Positions 11,141 through 30,333 of a DNA stretch of 43,175 bases are shown here, piece by piece. The position numbers and the translations under genes were made by a program. The notes beneath the pieces are model-generated. The model was given only the letters and a program-made list of their open reading frames with translations, made no database searches and had not been told where the DNA came from. Location: positions 1 through 43,175 of IMG/VR virus record IMGVR_UViG_3300044994_000276; one strand, 5' to 3'. Position 1 is the stretch's first letter; the number at the start of each line of letters is the position of its first letter. The stretch comes from a virus.

Positions 11141-11327
11141 CAAAGAGCGTTTTTCCTGGATCTCCAGTCACCTGCACCCAATAACGGCGATCGAGCGCAT
11201 CCCATAGCTGGTGTGTGCCTGGTTCAAAGCTGGGGCTGAAAATTGCATAGCCACAGCTCACCTCTGAGTGGTCAACGGTGCAGTGGCAGGCAAAAACGGT
11301 GTGGCCCGTGAGGCTGGCTACAAACAC
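11112..11327 (-). CDS. Small tail-region protein, unknown function
   Basis: A 71-residue protein with a GTG start sharing one base with the tail tube stop (TAGTG). It has an aromatic C-terminal half (WDALDRRYWVQVTGDPGKTLFDVRWLL) and three cysteines and two histidines near the start (HTVFACHCTVDHSEVSCGYA). The spacing does not clearly form a zinc finger. It overlaps the following gene by about 29 bases. Tight overlap with both neighbours supports it as real. No family was recognised. Confidence 0.5.
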   Translation of the reverse strand: MFVASLTGHTVFACHCTVDHSEVSCGYAIFSPSFEPGTHQLWDALDRRYWVQVTGDPGKTLFDVRWLLAAV

Positions 11328-12262
11328 TATTTGCGCGGTGGGGTCGTGATGGGTTCACCGCGTCCGTTAAACGAGGTGCTGAATGTAATATTGCCGTCTG
11401 CCGGGTTTTCCTTCGATATCCCGATCGCTTGGCAAATTCCCTCAAACGCCTCACCTGCAATAAACCCGGCGGGCGGGGTGTCGCGCTTGCGGACGTAGCC
11501 GGTGACACCCTTGACCGCGTTTCTAGCGGCGTAGCTGAGGCGGTAGTATCCCGGCTCTCCAGGGATCGCCAAGGCATCGTAGGAAATCGACCAGCTTGCA
11601 CCTGTCGCGCTGCCTGTGCTGTAGCCCCGCTCGTCGCCAAACACGATGATCGTCTCTTCGTCGGTGCTGATTTCTTCGCCCGTTGACGTGCCACCTTGGA
11701 GCTTCAGCAGCCCTCGATGCAGGGCTTTGTCGCCCGCAGACAGGGCATCGTCCAACGGCAAAACACTGAGCGCCGTTGCGCCGATCGCCGCGTCGGCAGA
11801 CACATAGGCAACCTTGAACGCGCCTGAGAGGACGTAGCCTACCGCCTCGTCAGCGATCGCACTCTTTAGCGCCTTAACGCTGATCGCCGTTGCGCCGCTA
11901 TTGGCGGTGGTCGTGACCTCGGCTTCATACTCAATCCCCGGAAACGAGATCTTGCTGCCAGCGGGCACAGCAGCAGACAGAGCCGTGACCGTGAGAGACG
12001 TTGCGCCTTTGGCAGCCGTCGCATCCAGCGTCACGGTCACGACGTTGGCAGCCGCAAAAAAACGCAGGGCGGAACCCGCCGGAATCGGCTGCGTCAGTGC
12101 AGACACCGGAATGCTGGATGTGCCAGCACTCGCGCCGCCTGCGGCAACATTGGCAAGGCTGTCGGGCGGGGCTGGGATTGGGCTTTGCGCCAGTAGCGAC
12201 GGGTGCAAGATCCCGAAAAATACTTCCGTGCCCGATCCGGGCAACACTTGGATGGTTGACAT
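11327..12262 (-). CDS. Major tail (tube) protein with four internal repeats
   Basis: A 311-residue protein. Its C-terminal half (EEISTDEETIIVFGDERGYS, then SWSISYDALAIPGEPGYYRLSYAA, NAVKGVTGYVRKRD) reads as a phage major tail protein. The N-terminal half holds four ~28-residue repeats at about 40-68, 81-107, 119-147 and 156-183. They share a GAT-x-(L/I)-x-V-x-x-L core and a PAG turn, as in GATSLTVTALSAAVPAG. It is preceded by a weak terminator and the 17-bp element at 12280-12296, and lacks a Shine-Dalgarno. The repeats may decorate the tube surface. Confidence 0.75.
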   Translation of the reverse strand: MSTIQVLPGSGTEVFFGILHPSLLAQSPIPAPPDSLANVAAGGASAGTSSIPVSALTQPIPAGSALRFFAAANVVTVTLDATAAKGATSLTVTALSAAVPAGSKISFPGIEYEAEVTTTANSGATAISVKALKSAIADEAVGYVLSGAFKVAYVSADAAIGATALSVLPLDDALSAGDKALHRGLLKLQGGTSTGEEISTDEETIIVFGDERGYSTGSATGASWSISYDALAIPGEPGYYRLSYAARNAVKGVTGYVRKRDTPPAGFIAGEAFEGICQAIGISKENPADGNITFSTSFNGRGEPITTPPRK

Positions 12263-12279
12263 GGGGTGTCCCGCTAACT

Positions 12280-12296
12280 CTGCTGCGAGAGTTCCC
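12280..12296 (-). promoter_or_regulatory. 17-bp conserved element upstream of the tail tube gene
   Basis: The minus strand reads GGGAACTCTCGCAGCAG, identical to 17294-17310. It lies 17 bases before the tail tube ATG and follows a weak hairpin with a U-run (12309-12330). Neither downstream gene has a Shine-Dalgarno. It may be a promoter for a specialised sigma factor or a leader element for translation. Its AACT...AGTT arms could form a small hairpin in the RNA. Confidence 0.6.
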
Positions 12297-12308
12297 TTGC
12301 CCCAAAGA

Positions 12309-12330
12309 CGAAAAACCCCGAGTAGTTCGC
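12309..12330 (-). terminator. Weak hairpin with U-run before the tail tube gene
   Basis: On the minus strand an imperfect stem (CCCGCG / CTCGGG around an AACTA loop) is followed by GTTTTTCG. It lies just after the stop of the preceding gene (12341) and before the 17-bp element. It probably separates the head-connector run from the tail run. Confidence 0.45.
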
Positions 12331-12340
12331 GGGCGGCTTA

Positions 12341-12763
12341 TTACTCAATGCTCAGTAGCTCCGTCTGGCGCACGGTGATCAGCGATCGCTCAATGTTGTC
12401 TAGGTTTGAGTTACGCACCTGACGGGCGATCGGGCCCGACACATCCAGCACTGGAACCGACCGCAGCGCCTGCAATGCAGCCACCAGCGCGGGCAGCGTT
12501 GTCCCCTCGGTGTCCCACTGCTTGAGAGCGATCGCCGTTGTCCAAAGCTGTTGGAAGCTGCCACCCAGCAGCGGTGTTAGCGTCGTCTCTAACTGAGTCG
12601 CAATCACGACCTCCAGCCCGATCGCCACGCCATCGACCGGGCCCGGCTGCCCACCGTCGTCAATGCGGATAGCGGGCGTTTCCAGGTTGCCAAAGCGGTA
12701 GACGCCCAGCAGTTCAACCAGGGCGGTTTGCAGCAGGTCGCGGATTTCTAGCGCGCTCATCAT
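12341..12763 (-). CDS. Tail terminator / minor tail protein candidate
   Basis: A 140-residue protein starting ATGATG at 12763-12758 and overlapping the previous stop. The N-terminus (ALEIRDLLQTALVELLGVY) is helical, and the rest is mixed beta (AIRIDDGGQPGPVDGVAIGL, then ARQVRNSNLDNIERSLITV). Length and position, directly upstream of the tail tube and after a gp10-like protein, match the tail terminator or tail-completion proteins of HK97-type phages. No sequence motif proves this. The frame could extend upstream, but the overlap with the stop favours this start. Confidence 0.6.
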   Translation of the reverse strand: MMSALEIRDLLQTALVELLGVYRFGNLETPAIRIDDGGQPGPVDGVAIGLEVVIATQLETTLTPLLGGSFQQLWTTAIALKQWDTEGTTLPALVAALQALRSVPVLDVSGPIARQVRNSNLDNIERSLITVRQTELLSIE

Positions 12764-13113
12764 AGCCTCTGCCTCAGCAGCAGCGAAGTCGTTTCTTGCA
12801 GGTTGAATTGCTCCAGTCCGACGCGCCCCCACGGTCGCCCCTGCACCTCCGTTCCGTTGCGCTGGTAGCCCTCATGGACGTAGAGAGCATACTCAACCGT
12901 CCAACCGAAGCGGGCGTAGGTTGGGCTGACAAAATCCAGGCGCTGCGAGGCTCTGAGCGCTCCGGTGTCCACGATATCGCCCGGAAACCCCGCGAACGCG
13001 CCTGGGGCTGAGATCAGCTCGGTGTATCTGCGTCCCAGGATTTGGCAAGAGTCCTGAAAGGCGGCGATCGCCGCTTTCTCTATCACGCCCACGTCTATCT
13101 GCACCTTAGTCAC
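12760..13113 (-). CDS. Neck protein resembling HK97 gp10
   Basis: A 117-residue protein. The order IEKAAIAAFQDSCQILGRRY, then DTGALRASQRLDF, then WTVEYALYVHEGYQRNG matches the gp10-type neck proteins: a DTG-x-LR-x-S strand and a Y-A-x-YVHEG motif. In that family it sits in the head-tail neck. Four-base overlaps at both ends place it firmly in the connector operon. This is one of the better supported neck assignments in the window. Confidence 0.75.
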   Translation of the reverse strand: MTKVQIDVGVIEKAAIAAFQDSCQILGRRYTELISAPGAFAGFPGDIVDTGALRASQRLDFVSPTYARFGWTVEYALYVHEGYQRNGTEVQGRPWGRVGLEQFNLQETTSLLLRQRL

Positions 13114-13559
13114 AGGCTGAAGTCCTCCAGATCGTCATCAACACTCAGGCTGTCGATCAGCGGTTGCAGTTCACCCGGATCGGCAAGGGTGAAGATGCCC
13201 CGCAATCGCGTCAGCTCCACGACGTCGGCAGTGTAGGGGCTAGGGGTGCTGAGCTGCATCGCAAAGCGCCCCGGAATGCCGTTTAGGGTGGCCACACACG
13301 GGCTATCGGGCGCGATCGCCCTCGGCAAGGGCAGGGGAGACACCACAAACCCAGTCAGCGCAAGCGATCGCCCATCATTCCCCAGCATCCGGTCGTCCCG
13401 TGGCATCCGGTCTAGTCGATTGCTGGCTTTCATGGCGGCGGTAACGCGGATCGTGGACTTGACGGGTCTGGGATTGCCCAGCCGATCTAGCCCCAGCTCG
13501 GCTGTCCCCACCTCAAAGTCAGCGACGAAGTTTGCAAAGTCTGCAAACGGGCTGCTCAT
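13110..13559 (-). CDS. Head-tail connector protein, unknown family
   Basis: A 149-residue protein with ATG at 13559 overlapping the stop of the peptidase gene (ATGA). It contains a conserved-looking beta core (FEVGTAELGLDRLGNPRPVKS, then STIRVTAAMKAS) and a C-terminal stretch (RLRGIFTLADPGELQPLIDS). Position between head and neck genes suggests a connector or head-completion role. An upstream extension of the frame has no plausible start. No family was recognised. Confidence 0.6.
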   Translation of the reverse strand: MSSPFADFANFVADFEVGTAELGLDRLGNPRPVKSTIRVTAAMKASNRLDRMPRDDRMLGNDGRSLALTGFVVSPLPLPRAIAPDSPCVATLNGIPGRFAMQLSTPSPYTADVVELTRLRGIFTLADPGELQPLIDSLSVDDDLEDFSL

Positions 13560-14152
13560 ATCCCCCAACTCCGCAGAGCGCCGATATCCAGGTGAATGAT
13601 GCGCGGGCGATCGCCATAAATTCCAAGCCCCCCACCCCATATCGGGCGAATGATCCGCGCTAGGTCACGCCCGCTCATGCCTTCTACGCGGAGGTCAACC
13701 GCCCGCCCGTCTTTGTGCAGACTGTGCTTTGCGCCGCCGACTCTGGCGTTATACGGGTCGGGGCGATACCAGGACGTAACAAGCATGGGGCGTCCGACCT
13801 TCAGCCTCACCGCCTGCAGGGATTGAGCCAGCGACAGAATGTTGGCAACTTCGCTTTTTGTGCGCGGGATGCGTTCGCCGTCATGTAGCGCTTCAGCCCA
13901 CGTGAACGCGCCATTGGGGACGATCGCATCGTCCAGATACACGCTCCGGCCAGGCAGTTCAATCAACCCCGATCGCCCGGTGCGGGGCGAGTCGTTGGGC
14001 GGTGGCTCCGAGCGCTGAACTGCCAGCGATCGCCACATCCTGGCAAACTCAGCCAGCGCATCGGACGGGATCTGCTGCTGCAAAAACTCAAGCGCTGCGT
14101 CCTGATGGGGCAGCGCATCGTAAAACCGGGCAACGTCGATCAACCTAATCAT
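13556..14152 (-). CDS. M15-family peptidase, probable endolysin
   Basis: A 198-residue protein; ATG at 14152 overlaps the lipoprotein stop. The C-terminal domain (about 115-198) carries the zinc peptidase signature of the M15 / YcbK type. H146-x6-D153 lies in HSLHKDGRAVDL, H187 in RIIHLDIG, and a TSWYRP strand precedes them. These enzymes cleave peptide stems of peptidoglycan. The N-terminal ~60 residues are helical (DVARFYDALPHQDAALEFLQ) and may bind the wall. A linker with NDSPRTGRSGLIELPGRSVYL separates them. It sits in the neck gene run next to a lipoprotein, so it may be a lysis pair or a virion-borne wall hydrolase. Confidence 0.8.
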   Translation of the reverse strand: MIRLIDVARFYDALPHQDAALEFLQQQIPSDALAEFARMWRSLAVQRSEPPPNDSPRTGRSGLIELPGRSVYLDDAIVPNGAFTWAEALHDGERIPRTKSEVANILSLAQSLQAVRLKVGRPMLVTSWYRPDPYNARVGGAKHSLHKDGRAVDLRVEGMSGRDLARIIRPIWGGGLGIYGDRPRIIHLDIGALRSWGI

Positions 14153-14294
14153 CTTGTACCTGCTGGAACCGTGGAATAGGGGTGCAGACACACTCTGGAT
14201 AGTCGCTGGGGCAGGGCGGATTTTTGGCAGCAAGGCTACACCCCACCGCGCAAACGGCGATCGCCAGCGTCAGCAAGGGAAGCAGCCTGCTCAC
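14145..14294 (-). CDS. Small lipoprotein beside the peptidase (spanin-like candidate)
   Basis: A 49-residue protein. A GTG start at 14294 overlaps the previous stop (GTGA). It has a textbook lipoprotein signal: SRLL, a hydrophobic LLPLLTLAIAV run, then CAVGC with the modified cysteine at residue 19. The mature part is short, proline- and cysteine-rich (NPPCPSDYPECVCTPIP), like Rz1-type outer-membrane spanins. It overlaps the peptidase start by eight bases. A partner inner-membrane spanin was not recognised. An alternative is a small virion lipoprotein. Confidence 0.65.
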   Translation of the reverse strand: MSRLLPLLTLAIAVCAVGCSLAAKNPPCPSDYPECVCTPIPRFQQVQDD

Positions 14295-14677
14295 GGGCTG
14301 AAATGGGAAACAGCAGACCGCCGTTTGTGCCGGATCAGCACATTGCTGCACACCTCGCAGTCAGGGGCGATCGCCTCAAACCCAGCGGGCACGTCCAGCC
14401 CTAGCGCCGAATCAATGCTGGCTTGCAGCCGCAGCAGCGATTCGATCGGCGTCTTCAGCCCGGTGAACTTCACGCCGTCAGCAGAGTCGATCTGCTGCTG
14501 CGCTCGGTTTTGCTCCAGAAATTTCGCCGCCGCAAAGTAGGGGCGATAGTTCAACACGCCCGCCTGGTCACGAGCAGCCGAAAGCGTCAGCACCTCCGTC
14601 AAATAGGCGTCGTCAGCGGTGGTGGCTCCGCTGCGCTCTTTTGCTCTGGCAAGGCTCTGGGAGAGGTCGGTGTACAT
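14291..14677 (-). CDS. Head completion / connector protein candidate
   Basis: A 128-residue protein sharing one base with the previous gene. The first part is helical (YTDLSQSLARAKERSGAT, then DDAYLTEVLTLSAARDQAG) and resembles the helical adaptor proteins that stack under the portal. The end has CEVCSNVLIRHKRR, a cysteine pair with a basic tail. It is coded between a small capsid-side gene and the lipoprotein. The connector role is inferred from order. Confidence 0.55.
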   Translation of the reverse strand: MYTDLSQSLARAKERSGATTADDAYLTEVLTLSAARDQAGVLNYRPYFAAAKFLEQNRAQQQIDSADGVKFTGLKTPIESLLRLQASIDSALGLDVPAGFEAIAPDCEVCSNVLIRHKRRSAVSHFSP

Positions 14678-14883
14678 CAGCCCTCCGCTTTGGTAGTCCG
14701 TCTACGAGTGGCGGGCTTGGGTGGCTCCGGCTCGGAATGCGTCAGCGTGTCGCTTTTGGGTTCGGCTTCAGGCAGGGTGAGAAGCCCAAGGGCGATCGCC
14801 ATGTCATCGGGCACAGTGCGATCGCCCGCCGCGTAGAACTGTCCTCGCCAGATTGCGTCATGAAGTAAGGTAACTTTTTTCAC
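14677..14883 (-). CDS. Small head-region protein carrying the repeat-encoded SDTLTHS
   Basis: A 68-residue protein just downstream of the major capsid gene. The first 40 residues form a compact domain (KVTLLHDAIWRGQFYAAGD) like small capsid-stabilising or head-tail proteins. The tail is low-complexity and basic (PEPPKPATRRRTTKAEG). The 23-bp dispersed element (14735-14757) lies in the linker and supplies SDTLTHS, so it seems to have been added to the C-terminal extension. Function is unknown. Confidence 0.6.
   Translation of the reverse strand: MKKVTLLHDAIWRGQFYAAGDRTVPDDMAIALGLLTLPEAEPKSDTLTHSEPEPPKPATRRRTTKAEG
14735..14757. repeat. Dispersed 23-bp near-palindrome, copy 2
   Basis: It matches AAATGCG-N9-CGCATTT with changes in the first base and right arm (CGCTTTT). 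It lies inside the small head-region gene and on the minus strand encodes SDTLTHS. Confidence 0.7.
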
Positions 14884-14892
14884 CCACTATCC

Positions 14893-16098
14893 TTACGCCG
14901 TCGGGCGCATGACTTGAATCACGTAGATCGCCTGCGGTTCCTGGATTACGGGCAATCCAGTTTGATAAGCCTCGCCATAGAGCCCCACAGGCTTTTTACC
15001 CTGAAACTCGGTGTAGATCGTGCGACCGCTGGAACCCTGACCCACGTTGCGCCCCACGCCGAAATAGCCCAGCGTGTTGTTGATCGTCAGATCCTCCACG
15101 TCCAGCGCTGAAGGGTCGTAGGTTCCGGTCACGCCTTCGACACGGCTGGCGTAATCGGTTTTCATATCCCACTGCAGGCGGCTGCGACCGAGCATCACCA
15201 CATAGTCGCGGTCGTTGTTGGGCGCATCCAGGTAGCGCCGGAAGCCCGTCGCGGTTTCGTAGCCCGCGTTATAGACGGTGAACTCTGGTAGCCCTTCGTC
15301 AGAGGCGATCGCCTGCACGTCGGAAGTGCTAACGCGCCCGGTGCTGCCCTGGATTTGCCCGCCTGCGTTGACGATGACTTTGCTGGTTCGTTTCACCACT
15401 TCGCTGTTTTGCTTGATCACGCTCAACAGCCTGCCAGACATGATTATGTCGGTCAGCTCGTAGCCCAAGTCCTCAAGCTTCTGCACACCCGCAAAGATGT
15501 CGTCAAACGGGTCGTATCCCGTCGCTGCATACCAGCCAGCGGGCGTGCCAACCGTGCCACCGCCGACGGTCGGGCGATGCCCCGGCGGGGCGTAGTAGTT
15601 GACGGTTTCTTCGTAGCCGTCGGAGCCACGGCGCACGGTTTGGGCGCGGATGATTGCGTCCCAGCGCTGCAGCTCGTTTTTGATGATGTGGGGACGCAGC
15701 AGCGAAGAGTCAGCCCAGCGGATCACCTGGGCGATCGCCTGCAAGTCTCCGCCCCGCATCAGCAGCTTCACCAAGCCATCATGCTGCTGTCCGGTAAACT
15801 CGTCCGCAGTGTCGGTGTGCCCCAATTCCACCTTGAGCGAACCGAGCAACATGCCGCCGCGCTGCATCTGGGCGGGGCTATAGCGGGTGCCGTCGAGGGC
15901 GGGTTGAGTGCGATAGCGGATCTGCTCCTCGGTGTAGGCGTTTTCAGGCACTAGCACCTCTGGCAGGTATCGAGCGCCCAAAAGGGGCTGTTCCTCGCTG
16001 CCAAACTGAGCCAGCGGGTTTAGGGCAAGCCGCCGAAAATAGCCCTTTTGGTCGCGTTCGAGCTGTTGATATAGCTCCTCAAAAGTCAGTACGGTCAT
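14893..16098 (-). CDS. Major capsid protein
   Basis: A 401-residue protein. The order scaffold, small head protein, this gene, connectors, and its length fit the major capsid. Features include an N-terminal helical region (FEELYQQLERDQKGYFRRL) and PEVLVPENAYTEEQIRYR. A central acidic segment (GYDPFDDIFAGVQKLEDLGY) precedes a strand-rich SGRLLSVIKQNSEVVKR. The C-terminus holds GLYGEAYQTGLPVIQEPQAI, like the major capsid protein E (lambda gpE) family; that family match is tentative. There is no clear protease gene, so maturation, if any, may not need one. A short 65-base spacer with two HIP1 sites lies upstream. Confidence 0.75.
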   Translation of the reverse strand: MTVLTFEELYQQLERDQKGYFRRLALNPLAQFGSEEQPLLGARYLPEVLVPENAYTEEQIRYRTQPALDGTRYSPAQMQRGGMLLGSLKVELGHTDTADEFTGQQHDGLVKLLMRGGDLQAIAQVIRWADSSLLRPHIIKNELQRWDAIIRAQTVRRGSDGYEETVNYYAPPGHRPTVGGGTVGTPAGWYAATGYDPFDDIFAGVQKLEDLGYELTDIIMSGRLLSVIKQNSEVVKRTSKVIVNAGGQIQGSTGRVSTSDVQAIASDEGLPEFTVYNAGYETATGFRRYLDAPNNDRDYVVMLGRSRLQWDMKTDYASRVEGVTGTYDPSALDVEDLTINNTLGYFGVGRNVGQGSSGRTIYTEFQGKKPVGLYGEAYQTGLPVIQEPQAIYVIQVMRPTA

Positions 16099-16163
16099 GG
16101 GTCAAAACCTGGATGGGGTGAGCAAGGTGAGGTGCGATCGCGCAAGTGCAGTGCGATCGCCCG

Positions 16164-16544
16164 CTATGCGGAGCGAATGCACTGATAGCGGGCGCGGATT
16201 GCCGCTTTTACGTTGCTTGCCAACCCAGCCCAGCCAGGCAGCTTGTCCTCATAAATCAACGTGCCGTGACGAACCAGCGTCACGTCTGCGTTTTGGGCTA
16301 GATCCGGCACAGAGAACGCGGTCAGAAACAGCTCATCGTCGGGCGTGGTCACGTCTGGCGGCCCATATGGGGCGCGGTTGTCGCGTTCGGTGAATGTGCG
16401 ACCAACTAGCGTCCCAGACTGCACAGTTGAGAAAACGGCAGCATCCAGCCGCGCACCGCCTGGAATCAGCTTCTCGGCTTCCAGGGGTTCGGCTGCCCAC
16501 GCGGGGTGGGCGTAGCCAGTGTAAGAAAAGGTGACTTGTGCCAT
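16164..16544 (-). CDS. Head protein between scaffold and capsid (decoration candidate)
   Basis: A 126-residue beta-rich protein (VTFSYTGYAHPAWAAEPLEAE, then FSVPDLAQNADVTLVRHGTL). Genes in this slot often code a decoration or capsid-stabilising protein. The ATG at 16544 is directly preceded by the heptamer array 16546-16608, so no Shine-Dalgarno exists; the array has replaced the usual leader. No family was recognised; the role is from position. Confidence 0.6.
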   Translation of the reverse strand: MAQVTFSYTGYAHPAWAAEPLEAEKLIPGGARLDAAVFSTVQSGTLVGRTFTERDNRAPYGPPDVTTPDDELFLTAFSVPDLAQNADVTLVRHGTLIYEDKLPGWAGLASNVKAAIRARYQCIRSA

Positions 16545-16545
16545 A

Positions 16546-16608
16546 GGGGTCAGGGGTCAGGGGTCAGGGGTCAGAGGTCAGGGGTCAGAGGTCAGAGGTC
16601 AGGGGTCA
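16546..16608. repeat. STRR: nine tandem heptamers (GGGGTCA / GAGGTCA)
   Basis: Nine exact-phase heptamers: six GGGGTCA and three GAGGTCA. Heptameric STRR repeats are typical of cyanobacterial chromosomes. The array fills the gap between two head genes. Its last unit supplies the TGA stop of the scaffold gene (16606-16608), and its first abuts the ATG region of the next gene, removing any ribosome site. Confidence 0.95.
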
Positions 16609-17274
16609 GGATTTGGGGGAAACCAGCGCTTTGTAGCCGGAGTAGGTGCGACCGATCAGCCCGTCCACAGGATCAGGCTCTTTCGGCGGTTCACCCTTGG
16701 GGCTGCCGCTGGGCAGTCTGGGGGTTTCAGGGGTCTTTTCGATCGCCGGAAACAGGGCAGCAGCGAAGGGTTTCAGCGCGTCATCGGCTTCGACGTATTC
16801 GCGCAGGGGCTTGTCTCCCAGCTTCACGCCGTCGTCGGCGATCGCCAGTTCACTCGCCTTGTCACCCAGGAGCCGTTCCAGCACAGCCAGATTGGCTCCC
16901 GTCGCTGCTGCGACCTGGGCTAACTTGCCCTGTCGTTCCAGGGCGATCGCCTTTGTTTCCGCCTCGCTCACTCGCGTCTCTAGCGCCGTCTTTTCAGTGC
17001 GGAGCTGCGACGCATCCGAGGCGATCGCCCGCGCTGTGGGTTCGATATTGCCGATCACTGCTTCGATGTCGCCTTCGACTCCCAGAGCCTTAGCCGTCGC
17101 CAGCAGTGCCTGTTCATAAGTCGTCGCCTTGGCAAGAGCGTTTCGCTTCTCACCAATCACGCCGAACTTATCGGCTTCGAGATCAGCGATCCTGCCTTCG
17201 ACGGCAGACACCAGTTCTGCAACGCCTTCGACTTCCAGAGTCTTCAGTTTGGCGATCGCCTGTTTGAAATCCAT
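16606..17274 (-). CDS. Capsid scaffolding protein
   Basis: A 222-residue protein just before the head genes. About residues 10-130 form a long helical coiled coil (IADLEADKFGVIGEKRNALAK, SQLRTEKTALETRVSEAETK). The end is a Pro/Gly/Lys linker (PRLPSGSPKGEPPKEPDPVDG) and a short tail, as in phage scaffolds that bind capsid through the C-terminus. Stop codon TGA comes from the heptamer array. A terminator and the 17-bp element precede it and no Shine-Dalgarno is seen. Confidence 0.75.
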   Translation of the reverse strand: MDFKQAIAKLKTLEVEGVAELVSAVEGRIADLEADKFGVIGEKRNALAKATTYEQALLATAKALGVEGDIEAVIGNIEPTARAIASDASQLRTEKTALETRVSEAETKAIALERQGKLAQVAAATGANLAVLERLLGDKASELAIADDGVKLGDKPLREYVEADDALKPFAAALFPAIEKTPETPRLPSGSPKGEPPKEPDPVDGLIGRTYSGYKALVSPKS

Positions 17275-17293
17275 GCGCGGGTATGCAACTCAA

Positions 17294-17310
17294 CTGCTGC
17301 GAGAGTTCCC
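17294..17310 (-). promoter_or_regulatory. 17-bp conserved element upstream of the scaffold gene
   Basis: The minus strand reads GGGAACTCTCGCAGCAG, identical to 12280-12296. It lies 19 bases before the scaffold ATG and directly after the portal terminator. Sharing at the start of two highly expressed late runs suggests a late promoter or translation element. Confidence 0.6.
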
Positions 17311-17315
17311 GGCAA

Positions 17316-17339
17316 TAAAAAAGCACCCGGTTGGGTGCT
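17316..17339 (-). terminator. Rho-independent terminator after the portal gene
   Basis: The minus strand has AGCACCC / GGGTGCT around an AACC loop followed by TTTTTTA. It lies 15 bases past the portal stop and ends the terminase-portal unit before the scaffold unit restarts. Confidence 0.85.
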
Positions 17340-17354
17340 GGAAGGGAAACGCTT

Positions 17355-18785
17355 TCAAAAGCTGCGGATTGGCGTGGGTGGCTCGGTTCGCCCGTTTGCC
17401 CGCTCAAACGGTGCAAGCCCATAATTCGGCTGCGGCACAGCTTGCCGCGCCTCTTGCTCTCTGCGTTCCTCGTCCAGCAGCGCCAGCTCTGAGTCTACGT
17501 CGCCGACGGTGCCCAGCGTGGCGATCGCCGTGGACTTGCTAAGCAGCCCCGCGTTGTACTCCTCTAGCAGTTGCCGCCGCTCTTCGGCACTCAGCTTACC
17601 TGTCGTGATATTGAGCGAAACGACAGCTTGCAGGTCGCCGTAGCCCAGCAGTCGCAGCACAATGTTCAGCACGTTGGCGATCGCCCCCTCGACTGGACGC
17701 TTCCAGCCGCGCAAATGCAGCTCAAACCCTTGCCGCAGCTGAATCCGGCTTTCCCCACTCAGTCCCCCATCGCCTGCACTGAGCAGGTGCCCCTGCTTGA
17801 ACTCCAGATAGAGCAACGTGCGGTAGATCTGCACCGCCTCCACAAAGCTGCCAATCCCCACGGGCTGCGATTCCACCACGCTAGGGCTGGCGTAGTTCGG
17901 CTCACGCGGATCGCCCTGGGGGATGCCGTAGAGGTATTGGTCGATTCCCGGCCCGCGCTCTACGTCCTCTTCTGGAAACTCGCAGTTGATCAGGGTGCGT
18001 TCTTTGAAACCCGCGATCGACTGATTGCGGACAAGCATCGTCAGGGCATGGCAAATGCCCGCCTGCTTTTGCTTTGCGGACTGACTGAGGAGCGATCGCC
18101 CTCGAACGTGCTGAACGGGCCAGCGCCCGCCCGTGTCGATCTCCAATTCCTCGTCTAGCGTCTGCACAATCACGCGATCGCCCTCCACCTGATAGCGCTC
18201 GTAGCCGCGCCCGTAGCTGTAAGAAATCTCCTCAATGAAGCCGTCATCGTCGCGCCTCAGCATGATGCTGCCTGCCTTGGGCGCGTGCAGGTGGATTCGG
18301 TGAATCGGGTCGGGGTCGTCTGCAAACCGCTTCGGCTGCCACAGTCGCAGGTTGCCCTCGCCAATTACGCCCAGCGAGAGGATAAATTCTGCCCACACAT
18401 CCGCTGGCTCAAAGTTGGAGGCGGCGGGGTCGAGTTCGGTTGCCTGCTGATTGACCCAATCCAGCCAGCGCTGCAAGGCGATTTCGGCGGCGGGGGCATC
18501 CGTGCGATCGCCCTCCGGGGTCTTCAAATTCCAGGTAAACGGCTGGGAGATCAGCCCGTCCTTCCAATTGTCAACCAGTTCTTTAAGAACGTTGTGCCCC
18601 TGGAAGACGCGGCGCAACTCGCTCATCTTGTCGCCATACTTCGGGTCTGTCTCTCGGAAGCGTGGCCCGATCCACGCCAGCCGGAACAGGTCGTCGCCGT
18701 GATACCAATCCAGGTTGGTCAGGTCGATTTGCCCGCTGTTGACGCCATAGAAGGGTTTGCGCTGGCTGTAGTCGCTTGCGTACAT
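17355..18785 (-). CDS. Portal protein
   Basis: A 476-residue protein directly after the large terminase, the standard portal position. ATG at 18785 is chosen over TTG at 18791 because AAGG lies nine bases upstream. It has helical N-terminal and C-terminal segments (MSELRRVFQGHNVLKELVDN; FVEAVQIYRTLLYLEFKQG) and a strand-rich middle. A C-terminal acidic helix (LSAEERRQLLEEYNAGLLSK) is typical of portals and is followed by DVDSELALLDEERREQEAR. As a ring of twelve it would form the DNA entry vertex and dock terminase. Exact family not recognised. Confidence 0.85.
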   Translation of the reverse strand: MYASDYSQRKPFYGVNSGQIDLTNLDWYHGDDLFRLAWIGPRFRETDPKYGDKMSELRRVFQGHNVLKELVDNWKDGLISQPFTWNLKTPEGDRTDAPAAEIALQRWLDWVNQQATELDPAASNFEPADVWAEFILSLGVIGEGNLRLWQPKRFADDPDPIHRIHLHAPKAGSIMLRRDDDGFIEEISYSYGRGYERYQVEGDRVIVQTLDEELEIDTGGRWPVQHVRGRSLLSQSAKQKQAGICHALTMLVRNQSIAGFKERTLINCEFPEEDVERGPGIDQYLYGIPQGDPREPNYASPSVVESQPVGIGSFVEAVQIYRTLLYLEFKQGHLLSAGDGGLSGESRIQLRQGFELHLRGWKRPVEGAIANVLNIVLRLLGYGDLQAVVSLNITTGKLSAEERRQLLEEYNAGLLSKSTAIATLGTVGDVDSELALLDEERREQEARQAVPQPNYGLAPFERANGRTEPPTPIRSF

Positions 18786-18812
18786 GCTCAAAAGCCTTTT
18801 TGTAAAGGTTCC

Positions 18813-20153
18813 CTACCAGTTGGTGGTTGCTCTGGGGGTGTGGCGTTTGGCGGGCGATCGCGCCTGGATTGCGGGCGCTAGGGCATAGCGGATCGCGTCG
18901 ATCAGGTGGTTGTGGGCATCCAGCACGACGGGTAACACGTCACCCGTCACGCGGTCGGTCTTGTAGCGATACAGCCGCGCCTCTTCGACAGTGTGTTTAC
19001 AACGCGGGTGAATCACGATTTTGTCAAAGCTCCGCAAAAACGTGATGCCGTCTTCTACGCTGCCACCCCACTTGGCAACGCCTTCAATCCCAGGCATCCC
19101 GTGCCTGCTCAGGTAGCTAATCGTCTCCGGTCTGGAGCTGTCGGCGCGAATCGCATGGCGATCGCACTCCGGCACTTCCGCCCGCCACACGTCCGCCGTG
19201 TCGTCTAGCTCCAAGGCGGTGTGGCAGCTCTCATGCTCCACCCACAGGCAGCGATCGCCAATCCAGCAGCGCACCAAGGCGGTTGGGTCTTGAGCAAAGC
19301 CGAAGTCGGCACCGTAGTACGGCCCGTCCCAGCCAGGTGCAGGCTCAAACTCTTGCACCTCCCACTTGCCAGAGAGGATCTGTGCATCGGACTTCTCCCA
19401 GAATCCGCCCTCCCAGATGTGCTGATAGGCATTTTGATCCGTGCGCTGCATGGCGCGGCGTTCTTCGTCTAGAACTGCCGGGAACCAAGGGTTCTGATCC
19501 CAGTTGATTTGACGGACGTAAGCGCGATCGCGCCCCTTAACTACCAGCTCCTGATACACCACGTCCGACTCTCGCAGCGGGTTGAACGTCACCCAGATTT
19601 CGGATTCAGGCGATCGAATGGTTGGGATCAGGATTTGCCAGCTTTCGGCGCTGATTGTTTGCGCCTCTTCGATCCAGCAGTGCGTCAGGGCGCTGGTGGA
19701 CTTGATTGATTGCACGTTGTGACGAACGCCCTTAAAGATAAACTCGCTGCCGTTGCTGCCAAGGATGCGATCGCGCTGAACCCAGTACAGCGCCCCTAGT
19801 CCCAACGCCTCAATTCGCTCTTTCAGCAGGTGGTGCACTGAGTCTTTGATTGAGATCTGAAACTCACGGGCACACAGCACCCGGATTTTGCGCTGAATTC
19901 CGGTAATCAGCAAGGCGTCTGCGGCGGCGTAACTTTTGCCAGATCCGCGGCCGCCCCACAGGCACTTGTAGCGGTAGGGCTGCAAGAGCGGTTTTGCCCA
20001 GTCCGCCAGGTTTGAGGCAAGGGCATCCACGTCAATGCGATCGCCCTCAACTGCCCGAACTTCAGGCAGCCGCTTGGCTAGGTGTCGTCGCTGGCGATCG
20101 CGCCCTAGCTCAAGCAATAGCGATCGAGGTGAGCTACTCCGCCTGTTGACCAC
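18813..20153 (-). CDS. terL: Terminase large subunit
   Basis: A 446-residue DNA-packaging motor with a GTG start, overlapping TerS by 20 bases. The ATPase domain has a Walker A GGRGSGKS (residues 67-74) and a Walker B CWIEEA (159-164). A coupling-type segment WVTFNP follows. The nuclease domain has three acidic groups: D283 in YGADFGF, D338 in IRADSSRPE, and D412 in DAHNHLIDA. This layout matches PBSX-type large terminases (Terminase_3), many of which package by headful, which would fit the circularly permuted map. Confidence 0.93.
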   Translation of the reverse strand: MVNRRSSSPRSLLLELGRDRQRRHLAKRLPEVRAVEGDRIDVDALASNLADWAKPLLQPYRYKCLWGGRGSGKSYAAADALLITGIQRKIRVLCAREFQISIKDSVHHLLKERIEALGLGALYWVQRDRILGSNGSEFIFKGVRHNVQSIKSTSALTHCWIEEAQTISAESWQILIPTIRSPESEIWVTFNPLRESDVVYQELVVKGRDRAYVRQINWDQNPWFPAVLDEERRAMQRTDQNAYQHIWEGGFWEKSDAQILSGKWEVQEFEPAPGWDGPYYGADFGFAQDPTALVRCWIGDRCLWVEHESCHTALELDDTADVWRAEVPECDRHAIRADSSRPETISYLSRHGMPGIEGVAKWGGSVEDGITFLRSFDKIVIHPRCKHTVEEARLYRYKTDRVTGDVLPVVLDAHNHLIDAIRYALAPAIQARSPAKRHTPRATTNW

Positions 20154-20631
20154 TGACTCGCTCCGCCAGTTCTCCGAGTCCTAGCAGCTCGGTTTCTATG
20201 TCGCACGCAGCTTTTATAAGTTCGCCCCCCCACCGACCGAGGGCGATCGCATCGGCCGGCCTGAAAGCCTCGGGCGGCAGATCGCGAATCCTGGAAGAAG
20301 CTTTGAGAATCGCGTTTAGCCCCGTGACCTTGATCGTCTTTGAGGCACGGGCTAGCCACTGGACGTGCTCGTCTAACTGCTGCCTCCACTCTTCTAGTTC
20401 GGGAAGGTTTTGGGCGATCGCTGCCTCCGTAAGTTCGATTATCTGTTCAGCGCGATCGCCCAATTCTTTGCGCCGCGCTACCTCTTCTTGAAACGCTTCG
20501 GTAGCGTTCCACCGCTGAATCGTCTTAGCGGACACGCCGAGGTCAGCAGCAACCTGTTTTTGGGTCTTCCCAGACGCCAGCAAGGCGGCCGCACTACGCT
20601 GATCTGCGCTCAGAGCTTTGGTTTTGGGCAT
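20134..20631 (-). CDS. terS: Terminase small subunit (HTH)
   Basis: A 165-residue protein; ATG at 20631 is chosen because the upstream extension is promoter DNA. Residues about 8-45 form a helix-turn-helix (LLASGKTQKQVAADLGVSAK, TIQRWN) as in small terminases that recognise the packaging site. The remainder is helical (ELTEAAIAQNLPELEEWRQQ). It starts the virion operon and shares its promoter region with the plus-strand genes at 20815. Confidence 0.8.
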   Translation of the reverse strand: MPKTKALSADQRSAAALLASGKTQKQVAADLGVSAKTIQRWNATEAFQEEVARRKELGDRAEQIIELTEAAIAQNLPELEEWRQQLDEHVQWLARASKTIKVTGLNAILKASSRIRDLPPEAFRPADAIALGRWGGELIKAACDIETELLGLGELAERVSGQQAE

Positions 20632-20744
20632 TTTGGACAAAACGGACACACGGCGGACACTTTCAGAATTCCCGCGATCGCCCCCCGTTGCACTGCGTTG
20701 ATCTGCAATCTCTGAGCAATATCTGGTTTTTTTGCAAAATAGAC

Positions 20745-20778
20745 TTGACGTTTTATCAATACGTGTGACATATTGATA
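20745..20778 (+). promoter_or_regulatory. Promoter overlapped by a perfect 8-bp inverted repeat operator
   Basis: A TTGACG -35 box (20745-20750) is followed, 17-18 bases on, by a CATATT/ACATAT -10. The inverted repeat TATCAATA (20754-20761) and TATTGATA (20771-20778), nine bases apart, covers the spacer and -10 region. It would drive the plus-strand gene at 20815, which has an excellent AAGGAGATCGAA ribosome site. A repressor bound here would block it. Which protein binds is unknown. The rest of 20632-20814 is non-coding. Confidence 0.7.
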
Positions 20779-20814
20779 TTGAGCTACAAACCACAAGTAC
20801 CAAAGGAGATCGAA

Positions 20815-21177
20815 ATGTTTGTAAAAGTCGCCAACACTACCCAATCAGAGCGGGAGCACCTTGTCAAAGTATACTCAATGCAGTTTTTCCGCTGGCAGGA
20901 AGGCCGGCGGGTAGAATATTGCCTCACCCCAGAGGAGATCGAAGCCAAGGTGAGGGAGAAAATCGGGGACTGCCAGTTCCTTGAGGCGTCCTACGAGCCG
21001 TTGAGAGTGAAGGTGCACGGGTGCTGGTCGCCTTCTAAAAAGTTACTTACTACTGGCGTTTGCAGCGGCGACGATTCAGCCGAAAACGAAATTCCCTGCA
21101 GCTCCTTAGCCCAGGCAGAGCGCCTGTTAGCCAAGCAAGCTGCTGACTGGGCTAAGGTTGCGGAGGCGAACCTGTGA
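20815..21177 (+). CDS. Small early protein, unknown function
   Basis: A 120-residue protein. The ATG at 20815 has AAGGAG nine bases upstream, the best ribosome site in this part. The sequence has a strand-helix start (MFVKVANTTQSEREHLVKVY) and cysteines at several places. A helical end (LAQAERLLAKQAADWAKV) closes it. No family was recognised. It is transcribed divergently from the terminase genes, behind an operator-controlled promoter, so it is likely an early or lysogenic regulator partner. Confidence 0.65.
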   Translation: MFVKVANTTQSEREHLVKVYSMQFFRWQEGRRVEYCLTPEEIEAKVREKIGDCQFLEASYEPLRVKVHGCWSPSKKLLTTGVCSGDDSAENEIPCSSLAQAERLLAKQAADWAKVAEANL

Positions 21178-22274: not shown

Positions 22275-23581
22275 TAGCTTGCCTCGCTTAATTCCTCTAC
22301 TGGAAACAGTTGGGGCAACTCGTCAACGGTCGCCACCACTTCGTAAAAATCCCCCCAGCCGCCCGGCTCTGGATTGAACGTCAGGCAGGGTAATTCGCTC
22401 TCGCTTGTAATTAGAGAATTCCCCTCTTCGCCTGACGCTAGGGCGTAGCTAAATGCCTGCGTTTGCGCTGGGCTGAGGTTGTAGCGCGGCTCATCCCAAA
22501 GCATCGCCAGCAAAGCATCGTAGGTGAATTTGTTACTCCAATTGGGAATATCACGGATCACGTTGTGAGCGGTTGCGCCCAAGTAATGCCCAACTTGCAA
22601 CACGCCCTCAGGCAGGAATGGGGACATCAGCTCGTAGAAATCCTCAAACGTGACGATCGCCCCTTTTTCCAACCCCTCGTCGTGACAGAGATTCACAAAA
22701 TCTTGCAGTACCGGGAAAGTCTTGGGGTAGTGACGGCGATAGATCTCGAAGAAACGCGATCGCCGATTTTGCCCCATCGTGTAGACCTCAAGCCCCTGAG
22801 CTGCTGCCAGATCGCTTACTAGGTTCAAGTGATCGCTGTCTTTTGGGTCGCAGGTGCGCTTTTTGACGCGATCGATTAGCGCCTGTGTCAGCGCCTCCCG
22901 CTCCCGTGGACTGAGCTGCTTTTCCTGGCTGCTGCTCAGGTGCAGGCTCTGCACCCACACGCCCTCTGCACCAGCGGCGGCAATTTGCTGGATCAACTCT
23001 TGCGGTCGGGGTAGCCACTCAGGGACGCAGGGATTGATGCCCACAACAACGGAATGCCCGCGCCCTTTGAGGGTTTCGATTAGTCGGAGGCGATCGCCCA
23101 CAGACGGCGCGCCCGGCTCAATCTTGGCGCGCAGGTCGTCTTCGTTGAAACTGATTGAAATATACCAGCAGGATGGCTTGAGAAATTCCAGCACTTCCGG
23201 CAGGTCGTCGGGCCGGCTGAAGCCTTTGGTCTGGAGGGCGATCGGGATGCCCAACTCCGTCATCAGGCGCATGATCGGGATAGCGGCGGTGCGGTTGCTC
23301 AGGCTGAAAGGGTCGGTGCGGTTGCTGAGCAGAACGGGGTAGCCCGCTTGCAGCAGCTTCGCCTCTAGGGTGTCGCGGTTTTGGTAGTCTGCCAGAAGGT
23401 TCACGGCTTGCTTGGAGCCGTTACGGGCTTTGCTTTTGCCGGATTTTTGGGCTTGGTGGCGATCGCCCAACACCGCGAAACAATACGCACAGCCCATCGA
23501 GCAAGGTTCAATCACGCTCAGCTCCAAGGGAATCGGCGATACCAGAAATTCGCCGTAATAGGTTGTTAACTGCTGTGCCAT
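22274..23581 (-). CDS. Radical SAM enzyme (SPL-type)
   Basis: A 435-residue protein; ATG at 23581 overlaps the ParB stop (TAATG). The iron-sulfur cluster motif CxxxCxxC is C27, C31, C34 in EPCSMGCAYCF. It continues with SNRTDPFSLSNR and an IALQTKG strand, as in spore-photoproduct-lyase-like members of the family. A second half (about 270-435) has FYELMSPFLPEGVL and no recognised extra cluster. It could repair DNA lesions or modify a base or peptide. Direct overlap with the ParB-like gene suggests the two act together. Confidence 0.8.
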   Translation of the reverse strand: MAQQLTTYYGEFLVSPIPLELSVIEPCSMGCAYCFAVLGDRHQAQKSGKSKARNGSKQAVNLLADYQNRDTLEAKLLQAGYPVLLSNRTDPFSLSNRTAAIPIMRLMTELGIPIALQTKGFSRPDDLPEVLEFLKPSCWYISISFNEDDLRAKIEPGAPSVGDRLRLIETLKGRGHSVVVGINPCVPEWLPRPQELIQQIAAAGAEGVWVQSLHLSSSQEKQLSPREREALTQALIDRVKKRTCDPKDSDHLNLVSDLAAAQGLEVYTMGQNRRSRFFEIYRRHYPKTFPVLQDFVNLCHDEGLEKGAIVTFEDFYELMSPFLPEGVLQVGHYLGATAHNVIRDIPNWSNKFTYDALLAMLWDEPRYNLSPAQTQAFSYALASGEEGNSLITSESELPCLTFNPEPGGWGDFYEVVATVDELPQLFPVEELSEAS

Positions 23582-24177
23582 TAGTCCTCCAGTGCCCTGC
23601 CTTCCAGCAGTTTCAGAAATACAGTTTTGTCGTCTTTCACCCCGTAGCCCCGTTTGACTGCCTGCCAAATCTGGTTTTCCCTGTGGCTCAGGACGATTGG
23701 AATCACGTAGCGATCGCCATCCACCCCAGACCCAGCAGGCTCCTCCTCGTCTTCCGCCGCCACCTCCTCGCCCCAGTCCTCAATCTCGGATTCTAGAAAC
23801 CAGTCGGAAAGGTCGATTTCTTCGTGCAGCTCCTCTAGCACCTCCTCGTCCCAGGCAAGAGAGACAGACCCGACGCGGTTATCGGCGATCGCCAGCTTTT
23901 TCGCCTTCTCGTCAGTGGAGAGGTCGAGATCCACCCGCTTAGTGACAACCAATGCCGAGCCGTCAGTTTCGACGACGATGGCATTCTCAAACCCGGACTC
24001 TACAGCGGTTTCCAGGGTTTTGTTGCCAGCAATGATCACGTTGTTTTTGTCCACAACGATCGACCGGCCAGCGCCAAGGGTGCCGAGGGATTTTTCTAGG
24101 AGCGATCGCCCGTATTCCGTGCCCTTGTTGGCATTGTGCGGATCGGGTACAAAGTCGGTAAGTTTTGCTTGAGTCAT
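23581..24177 (-). CDS. ParB-like nuclease/DNA-binding domain protein
   Basis: A 198-residue protein. ATG at 24177 is chosen because the earlier in-frame ATG (24201) lies inside a terminator. The ParB/Srx-type core runs PDPHNANKGTEYGRSLLEKS, VVDKNNVIIAGNKTLETAVE, then KKLAIADNRVGSVSLAWDE. A middle acidic linker (EDWGEEVAAEDEEEPAGSG) leads to a small C-terminal part (VIPIVLSHRENQIWQAVKRG). Phage proteins of this type are often coded with DNA-modifying enzymes rather than a ParA; no ParA is seen here. No Shine-Dalgarno: the ATG follows the U-run of the terminator. Confidence 0.75.
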   Translation of the reverse strand: MTQAKLTDFVPDPHNANKGTEYGRSLLEKSLGTLGAGRSIVVDKNNVIIAGNKTLETAVESGFENAIVVETDGSALVVTKRVDLDLSTDEKAKKLAIADNRVGSVSLAWDEEVLEELHEEIDLSDWFLESEIEDWGEEVAAEDEEEPAGSGVDGDRYVIPIVLSHRENQIWQAVKRGYGVKDDKTVFLKLLEGRALED

Positions 24178-24199
24178 AAAAAAGCCCGCAAGCGCGGGC
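24178..24199 (-). terminator. Terminator after HU, touching the ParB start
   Basis: On the minus strand GCCCGC and GCGGGC pair around a GCTT loop, followed by TTTTTT. It lies about 30 bases after the HU stop and ends exactly at the ParB ATG. It could terminate HU transcripts, and readthrough would control the ParB-radical SAM genes. Confidence 0.85.
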
Positions 24200-24227
24200 A
24201 TTAGAGGAGATCAGACCATGCAGACGA

Positions 24228-24506: not shown

Positions 24507-24608
24507 GCCGATTTGTGAAACGACGGGATTCTCAAAGAATATACTCAGTCTATTGGCGCAATTGGCAGCATGGGCAAGATTTTATCAGTTTTTCGCTATT
24601 CAGAGATC

Positions 24609-25244
24609 ATGGGAAAAAGTGAAGCCGATCTAATTCAGCGAAACATGGGATTGGTTCGCAAGCTGGCGAGGCGTTTTCAGGGCTTGTGCCGCGAGCCCTA
24701 CGACGATCTGATTCAGGAAGGGACAATCGGGCTGATCAAGGCGGTGCGGAGTTTTGACAGCGGCAGGCAATGTGCTTTCAGTTCATACGCGGTGCCTCTG
24801 ATTCGAGGGCAGATACAACACTACTTGCGCGATCGCGGGTATGCCGTCCGCCCGCCGCGCCGCGACGTTGAGGACTACGGGCGCGTTGCTAGAGCGCACC
24901 GGCTGCTGGAGAAACACGGGCGATCGCTCGACCTAGCGACTGTTGCTCAGCTCTCAGGCATCTCAGCCCAGCGCTGGGCTGAGATCGTTGAGGCGAGGCG
25001 CGGACAGTGCGTCAGCCTGGACGAAGCAGATCCACAGATTCAGGCAGACCCGCAGATTCAGGGCGATCGCGACTGGCTAGACTCCCTGTTCGCCCTGCCA
25101 GAGTTTCAGCGCACCTGTGTCCGAGAGCATTACTTTGGTGGGCAGACACCCCAGGCGATCGCCCTCCGGCATGGGTGCAGCGTGGCGGTGGTGGAACTGG
25201 CGATCGAGACAGCGATCGAAACGCTGCGAGGCTGCCTATGTTAG
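24609..25244 (+). CDS. RNA polymerase sigma factor (group 3 / SigF-like)
   Basis: A 211-residue protein; ATG at 24609 is chosen as it gives the family N-terminus (an earlier ATG at 24570 adds 13 residues). Region 2 is clear: LVRKLARRFQGL, DDLIQEGTIGLIKAVRSFD, then AFSSYAVPLIRGQIQHYLRD and PPRRDVED. Region 3 (ATVAQLSGISAQRW) and region 4 (LPEFQRTCVREHYFGGQTPQ, AIALRHG) follow. It resembles cyanobacterial SigF/SigB-type factors. A phage sigma factor would redirect the host polymerase, most likely to late genes. It heads a tightly overlapping operon. Confidence 0.88.
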   Translation: MGKSEADLIQRNMGLVRKLARRFQGLCREPYDDLIQEGTIGLIKAVRSFDSGRQCAFSSYAVPLIRGQIQHYLRDRGYAVRPPRRDVEDYGRVARAHRLLEKHGRSLDLATVAQLSGISAQRWAEIVEARRGQCVSLDEADPQIQADPQIQGDRDWLDSLFALPEFQRTCVREHYFGGQTPQAIALRHGCSVAVVELAIETAIETLRGCLC

Positions 25245-29820: not shown

Positions 29821-29972
29821 TGACATACTCCCGACGCTCATGCTGACGCATAGAGCGCGGGCTTCTCAGTGACCCCTAGTATCCCATCGGGCGTTTCCTG
29901 AGCTTTATTGACGGGATGACCCACCGCCAAATACTTGATATTGATTGCTGCGTTGTGGTCACGGTCTAGCTC
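29821..29972 (-). pseudogene. Truncated tnpB 3' end with IS605-type right end
   Basis: Read leftwards from 29972, an open frame of about 44 codons gives LDRDHNAAINIKYLAVGHPV, the RuvC-III motif of TnpB (DRDxNAAxNI), ending at TGA 29838-29840. The following right end is an imperfect hairpin (29830-29861) then GGGAGTATGTCA, typical of IS605-family ends. Everything upstream of tnpB's last motif is gone; the relic begins at the stop codon of the GIY-YIG gene. No intact nuclease remains. Confidence 0.8.
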
Positions 29973-30333
29973 AGAGCAGCAAGAGGACAGCGATCAGTCC
30001 GAGTAGGGGGAGCAGTAGGGCGATCGCATTGCACACATCAACCCAGCGGGGAACCTGTGGGCGCTGTTCGTTGTAGTTGCCCATCCGCTTAATCCAGTAG
30101 GCTTCTTTGCCGCTCATCAGCCAAGGGTGGCAATATTCGACTACTGAGAAGGCAAAAGCCCGCGCCCCATAATGATTCCAGTCAGCTTGGAGGCGATCGC
30201 AGCAATGCCGCCCAGAATCTAGCTCTCGGCGGTGCTGCTGCCAGCGTCGAGGAATGTGTTTGGATTTGCCGACGTAGCGGCGTCCGTTGCGCTGGCAGTG
30301 AATCTGATAGATGCCTGATGGGTTCCTCACCAC
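29971..30333 (-). CDS. GIY-YIG nuclease-domain protein with C-terminal membrane anchor
   Basis: A 120-residue protein, GTG start overlapping the previous stop. GIY (7-9) and YVG (20-22), followed by K-S-x-x-I-x-R-R-W-x-x-H (23-34) and KEAYWIKRMGNYN, fit the GIY-YIG fold with its conserved Arg and Glu. Residues about 101-120 (AIALLLPLLGLIAVLLLL) form one membrane helix that ends the protein. A membrane-tied nuclease of this type is unusual. Its stop coincides with the edge of the tnpB relic, so the end could be altered by that insertion. Confidence 0.75.
   Translation of the reverse strand: MVRNPSGIYQIHCQRNGRRYVGKSKHIPRRWQQHRRELDSGRHCCDRLQADWNHYGARAFAFSVVEYCHPWLMSGKEAYWIKRMGNYNEQRPQVPRWVDVCNAIALLLPLLGLIAVLLLL

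Follow-up and report, generated by a model that had tools for sequence, protein, structure and literature searches.

A positioned, extended -10-like element before virion genes of cyanophages with a SigF/SigJ-like sigma factor: a probable late promoter, with predicted start-site hairpins

The same 17 bp stand before two virion genes of an uncultured phage, and the question is whether they constitute a promoter, a leader element or a repeat without function. The window, that is the whole stretch of DNA analysed here, comprises the 43175 bases of an IMG/VR virus record, and the cyanobacterial HIP1 site GCGATCGC is abundant in it. On its minus strand the element GGGAACTCTCGCAGCAG occurs exactly twice in the whole window, at 12280-12296 and 17294-17310, as had been claimed, and no third copy was found in the window within 3 mismatches. 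Its first base lies 34 nt upstream of the tail-tube ATG (12262) and 36 nt upstream of the scaffold ATG (17274), while its last base lies 17 nt and 19 nt before them, respectively, in agreement with the 17-19 bases originally given, and both leaders lack a Shine-Dalgarno sequence, again as proposed. The original prediction also placed each copy just after a terminator. This holds for the scaffold copy, which follows a good terminator (7-bp stem and T-run), whereas the tube copy has only a weak hairpin upstream. The features of these two loci are as follows.

11327..12262, minus strand: major tail tube protein gene, 311 aa (PHROGs major tail protein, E=2e-5).
12280..12296, minus strand: 17-bp element before the tail-tube gene (exact repeat; leave-one-genome-out PWM score 16.2), with a putative extended -10 GGGAACTCT at 12296-12288 and an inferred start site A at 12281.
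12311..12333, minus strand: weak terminator-like hairpin upstream of the tube element, CCCG-CGAACTACT-CGGG then TTTTT, read in the sequence from 12333 to 12311 and unlisted by the terminator scan.
16606..17274, minus strand: putative scaffold gene, 222 aa, between the portal and major capsid genes (assigned by position and by a relative in the phage G001).
17294..17310, minus strand: 17-bp element before the scaffold gene (exact repeat; PWM score 12.6; also before the scaffold gene of the relative G001), with a putative extended -10 GGGAACTCT at 17310-17302 and an inferred start site A at 17295.
17322..17339, minus strand: intrinsic terminator stem (17339-17322) with a T-run after it, just upstream of the scaffold element.

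A PHROGs search with the putative scaffold protein gave no hit. As a side observation, a run of near-identical GGGGTCA/GAGGTCA units, which are short direct repeats, separates the scaffold gene from the next one (16541-16611).

In a 43-kb genome rich in HIP1, a repeated 17-mer is by itself only weak evidence, and 1 of 100 shuffles gave two hits at 3 mismatches. What makes it significant is its position and the comparison with other genomes, with two diverged copies in the window and 64 strict sites in a survey where 10.9 were expected. Outside its own phage population, the exact 17-mer has only five matches in IMG/VR, all in unrelated sequence and not before starts. A 15-letter variant has 58 hits across IMG/VR, of which only four lie 27-41 nt upstream of an ORF with an ATG start, one of these four in a contig already in our set. 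Canonical sigma-70 promoters between 11000 and 21000 were no more frequent than in shuffles (3 found against 2.5). A leave-one-genome-out matrix gave four good sites before late genes of the window (tube, terminase small subunit, scaffold and portal), and its remaining matches lie inside genes or have no start at that distance. By these matches, the window contains at least four putative sites and is not limited to two. The second pair comprises the following features.

17355..18785, minus strand: portal gene with an ATG start (weak PHROGs portal hit; 59% identical to the G001 protein).
18798..18813, minus strand: third, diverged copy before the portal gene, GGGAACCTT (score 12.0 with the leave-one-genome-out matrix; inferred start site A at 18798; ATG at 18785), an element also found at the portal genes of G001 and G002.
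20134..20631, minus strand: terminase small subunit (TerS) gene with a proposed ATG start (PHROGs TerS, E=1e-8, on the longer ORF; sequence).
20658..20673, minus strand: fourth, diverged copy before TerS, GGGAATTCT (PWM score 15.6; sequence), with an inferred start site G at 20658 and a probable ATG at 20631, in the same place in G001 and G002.

The listed ORF for TerS (20134-20844) begins at a TTG at 20844; the position of the element and the sequence suggest that the true start is the ATG at 20631.

Nearly the same phage as the window is present in contig 3300045922_000730. Two phages are more distant: G001 shares mainly head genes with the window (50-71% identity) and G002 mainly tail genes (39-86% identity), and relatives of the tube protein in G002 and in contig G027 are 63-65% identical. 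A shortened element precedes the matching genes, being GGGAACTCTGCGAGCG before the G001 scaffold gene and AGGAACACTCTC before the G002 tube gene, and further shortened elements lie 31-38 nt before starts in both phages. Orthologous placement was found at TerS and portal in the window, G001 and G002, at the scaffold gene in the window and G001, and at the tube gene in the window, G002 and G027. No relatives of the tube and capsid proteins were found in phage records, and none of the capsid protein in GTDB genomes. The genome is a mosaic in which head genes match G001 and tail genes match G002; within G002, the genes for tape measure and tube are far from each other and differ in strand.

A sigma factor encoded by the phage itself had been claimed too, and it was located in the window.

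24570..25244, plus strand: SigF/SigJ-like (group 3) sigma factor, which we propose as the reader of the element (Sigma70_r2, E=7e-20).

Its best NCBIfam hit is cyanobacterial SigF, below the family cut-off; G001 and G002 also encode a SigF-like sigma factor, and the host proteins related to the phage sigma are SigF-like and come from filamentous cyanobacteria. In a sigma tree made with a quick method only, the phage sigmas stand far from host ones on long branches, so that specificity cannot be read from it, and the tree supports no claim on SigF versus SigJ descent.

We surveyed 23 IMG/VR contigs, the window included, which are most of those found with a related sigma. All but one were chosen by their SigF/SigJ-like sigma, the exception being G027, which was picked by its tube gene and in which no sigma was sought. 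A scan of these contigs with no motif supplied returned GGGAAC as the top-enriched hexamer 29-40 nt before starts, and the distances from motif to ATG form a sharp spike at 28-41 nt, flat elsewhere and with almost no excess beyond about 45 nt. The strict motif RGGAAYNYT was found 64 times at 28-41 nt before an ATG against 10.9 expected, background counts being taken at distances of 45-120 nt in the same genomes. In five sigma-less cyanophages, verified to be without Sigma70_r2 and including Nostoc A1, Nodularia kac65 and Ma-LMM01, it was found 0 times at this distance against 1.7 expected (Fisher 9e-10 for the sigma-bearing set versus these five). The transcriptome paper on Ma-LMM01 reported no phage-specific motif (PMC5780444). 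There are sigma-bearing exceptions, Cr-LKS4 and contig G023, with little or no motif, and the survey has weak points, namely that only five genomes serve as negative controls and that some sigma-bearing contigs are mutually related. PHROGs searches with 20 proteins downstream of strong sites named portal six times (one weak) and TerS-like DNA-binding proteins twice (weak), further names were tail sheath, baseplate, head proteins and tape measure, and for several of the proteins the function is unknown. Besides, RGGCAY variants are over-represented at the same distance in the sigma-bearing contigs (67 against 34), which hints at a second promoter class.

Column counts against background resolved the element as G-Y-RGGAAYTCT-N6-R, with strong columns at GG (positions 2-3), A5, T9 and R16 and enrichment also at Y6, T7 and C8. 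Position 1 is G in 61% and A in 38% of the sites, A is the only enriched letter at position 5, position 6 prefers C (or T) and position 7 T, and T at position 9 was counted 85 times against 15.8 expected. At position 16 a purine was counted 104 times against about 20 expected, and a pyrimidine 21 times against about 18, that is at background; this purine is independent of the presence or strength of the hairpin described below. Upstream of the motif there is no information that would correspond to a -35 element. Judged by these columns, the functional core is the 9-bp RGGAAYTCT plus a purine 7 nt on, rather than 17 bp.

Sigma-70-type factors flip out two bases, the A at -11 and the T at -7. 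When T9 is numbered as -7, A5 becomes the -11 base and position 16 becomes +1. In the Nostoc J-box, GGGaAtacT, the gvpA start site lies 10 bp from the centre of aAtacT (PMC6495340), and this spacing applied here puts +1 at position 16-17, which the position-16 purine fits, with no mapped 5' end. RGG would be the extended -10 (-15 to -13) and AAYTCT the -10 hexamer (-12 to -7), and transcription would start at the purine that follows the -10 T by 7 nt, leaving a short leader of about 13-27 nt without Shine-Dalgarno. We propose that the element is most probably an extended -10 late promoter read by the phage SigF/SigJ-like sigma with the host core RNA polymerase. Several virion genes, in the window TerS, portal, scaffold and tube, have one such site each in front of them, in some cases directly behind a terminator. 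A late promoter of the phage sigma was one of the two readings originally offered, and it is the best supported because of the extended -10 logic, the fixed start-site purine, the co-occurrence with the sigma, the absence in sigma-less cyanophages and the many virion genes. We hold it with considerable confidence, having directly observed the motif, its register and spacing, the downstream gene content, the sigma association and the covariation, and having inferred the start site, the sigma recognition, the late timing and the translational effect without RNA 5' ends or sigma-binding data. Against it count the near-constant distance to the start codon, which is tighter than usual for promoters, the departure from the Nostoc J-box at positions 6-7 and the presence of a clear hairpin at only some of the sites.

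The element is similar to the Nostoc punctiforme SigJ J-box in the G trio of the extended -10, the nearly invariant A and T of the hexamer, the weak -35, the SigF/SigJ-related sigma and a start 10 bp past the hexamer centre, the latter inferred here (PMC6495340). Several points set the phage element apart: RGGAAYTCT departs from GGGaAtacT at positions 6-7 and can also have A at position 1, its reader would be a very diverged phage sigma, it precedes virion and not hormogonium genes, and its leader is short and near-constant.

The other reading, a special leader, is partly right as well, in that the flank of the inferred start site forms a covarying hairpin with the leader in many copies. Segments that begin at position 10 and end at the ATG were more stably folded than their shuffles (z<-2 in 21 of 84), and those that begin at position 16 were no more structured than shuffles. 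In a swap test, the six bases at positions 10-15 were joined to the leaders of other elements and own pairing was compared with swapped pairing. Own pairs were far better, with Z -9.4 across genomes and -5.7 within genomes, and the control with 500 ordinary starts gave Z -0.2. When the arm was slid along, the signal peaked at positions 10-16 and reversed further downstream, and RNA from position 16, where the start site is inferred, was less structured than swapped combinations. The predicted pairing joins the bases immediately preceding the inferred start site to those at -14 to -3 before the AUG. Folding predicts two such hairpins at the exact copies.

12269..12290, minus strand: predicted lock hairpin TCTCGC..GCGGGA across the inferred tube start site (fold).
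17285..17300, minus strand: predicted lock hairpin GCAGC-AGTTGA-GTTGC across the inferred scaffold start site (folds).

Around the start, the fraction predicted to be unpaired rises in the window from 0.35 to 0.57 for scaffold, from 0.27 to 0.45 for tube and from 0.38 to 0.61 for portal, a modest effect. Not all sites show a clear hairpin, and at the tube site it is modest. With the bases just upstream of the start site complementing the leader near the AUG, read-through RNA would fold over the start region, and promoter-started RNA, without the 5' arm, would be open. Many cyanophages may then have a two-layer late-gene code, in which a SigF/J-type sigma reads J-box-like promoters and hairpins across many of their start sites silence other transcripts, a proposal to which we give even chances; if it is true, no locked virion gene would be translated until its own promoter had been used. 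In G007, G010, G011 and G017, many hairpins share the arm GGCAG...CTGCC although the phages differ, which is greater uniformity than a pure lock would call for.

Since sequence cannot separate DNA from RNA pairing and the downstream inverted repeat spans the inferred start site, the repeat could be a protein operator or another DNA feature with no RNA lock. We find this rather doubtful, although it retains a real chance, as the arms differ between sites in one phage while complementarity is kept, which is what the within-genome swap (Z -5.7) measures. It may also be that the host SigJ/SigF reads J-box-type promoters and the phage sigma serves something else, in line with the likeness to the host J-box (PMC6495340) and with the host relatives of the phage sigma being SigF-like proteins of filamentous cyanobacteria. 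However, the sigma-less Nostoc A1, Nodularia kac65 and Ma-LMM01, whose hosts are filamentous or unicellular, are without the positioned motif, and this arrangement seems unlikely to us. A recent 17-bp duplication or mere chance, without function, would be compatible with the one shuffle in about 100 that gives two hits at 3 mismatches, but it is contradicted by the cross-genome data, position and sequence being conserved in divergent phages, and we consider it practically negligible.

The tight distance to the AUG and the covarying hairpin between motif and AUG would also be expected of a post-transcriptional leader, with RGGAAYTCT and the hairpin carried in mRNA from upstream promoters and aiding translation or stability, for example by bridging an upstream ribosome-binding sequence to the AUG. 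In T4 gene 25, a hairpin brings an upstream ribosome-binding sequence next to the AUG. A conserved stem is mentioned for that case (PMC3014915). Nevertheless, AGGAGG was counted 10 times against 9.6 expected at 28-41 nt, yet 57 times against 6.2 at 9-17 nt, so the element is not a ribosome-binding word, and these position-specific counts led us to reject the Shine-Dalgarno or bridged Shine-Dalgarno reading. Moreover, the position-16 purine is kept regardless of the hairpin, terminators lie directly upstream of several sites, and such a leader leaves the association with the sigma gene unexplained; we judge it quite improbable. An Rfam search of the window matched no RNA family. An ECF-type -35 reading of GGAAC was likewise discarded, there being no shared -10 block downstream.

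The late promoter with start-site hairpins, which we prefer, has a known parallel. In T4, the late promoters of genes e, soc, 49 and I-TevI lie inside inhibitory leaders, which lock the read-through RNA; for gene e, which has been studied well, the late-promoter RNA is unlocked (PMC3014915). As in those genes, the putative cyanophage promoter sits within or beside the 5' arm of a predicted hairpin over the translation start, and RNA from the promoter would be without the arm, given the inferred start. Unlike T4, the sigma and promoter are other ones (RGGAAYTCT and a SigF-like sigma, not TATAAATA and gp55), the arrangement seemingly extends across many virion genes, and the leaders have no Shine-Dalgarno. 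What is new is the predicted pairing between leader and flank of the inferred start site, which varies in step between sites while RNA from that start stays open, the arrangement of T4 e, soc and 49 at many genes. In cluster K mycobacteriophages, start-associated sequences adjoin the start codon and include a ribosome-binding word. They resemble the present element in being short and conserved and in preceding several phage genes by a fixed distance (PMC3203893), and differ from it in that the cyanophage element lies about 34 nt from the start and is not Shine-Dalgarno-like.

ORF 003 of the cultured phage P-SS2 is a phage-borne group 3 sigma whose targets were left open in 2009 (PMC2784084). 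Like the phages surveyed here, P-SS2 carries RGGAAY 30-39 nt upstream of annotated starts (7 of 112, the richest 14-nt bin). Unlike the window, its sites have their own sub-consensus, the extended AGGAAYACTGGCGGCGAT being shared by those at 13284 and 34502 (L128). The late-promoter hypothesis is well supported and has been extended, 5' ends, sigma recognition, late timing and translational effect not being shown, and it offers a concrete target sequence, an inferred start site and a putative regulon for phage group 3 sigmas of this kind. It also suggests that an unrelated set of phages uses the locking of late genes known from T4 as a general strategy, and it would allow late genes of uncultured cyanophages to be recognised straight from sequence.

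Other genes of the window include a ParB-like protein (23581-24201), a GIY-YIG nuclease (29971-30333), a C5-cytosine methylase (35729-36772), a PAPS-reductase-like protein (36982-37974) and a Dam-like methylase (37971-39137).
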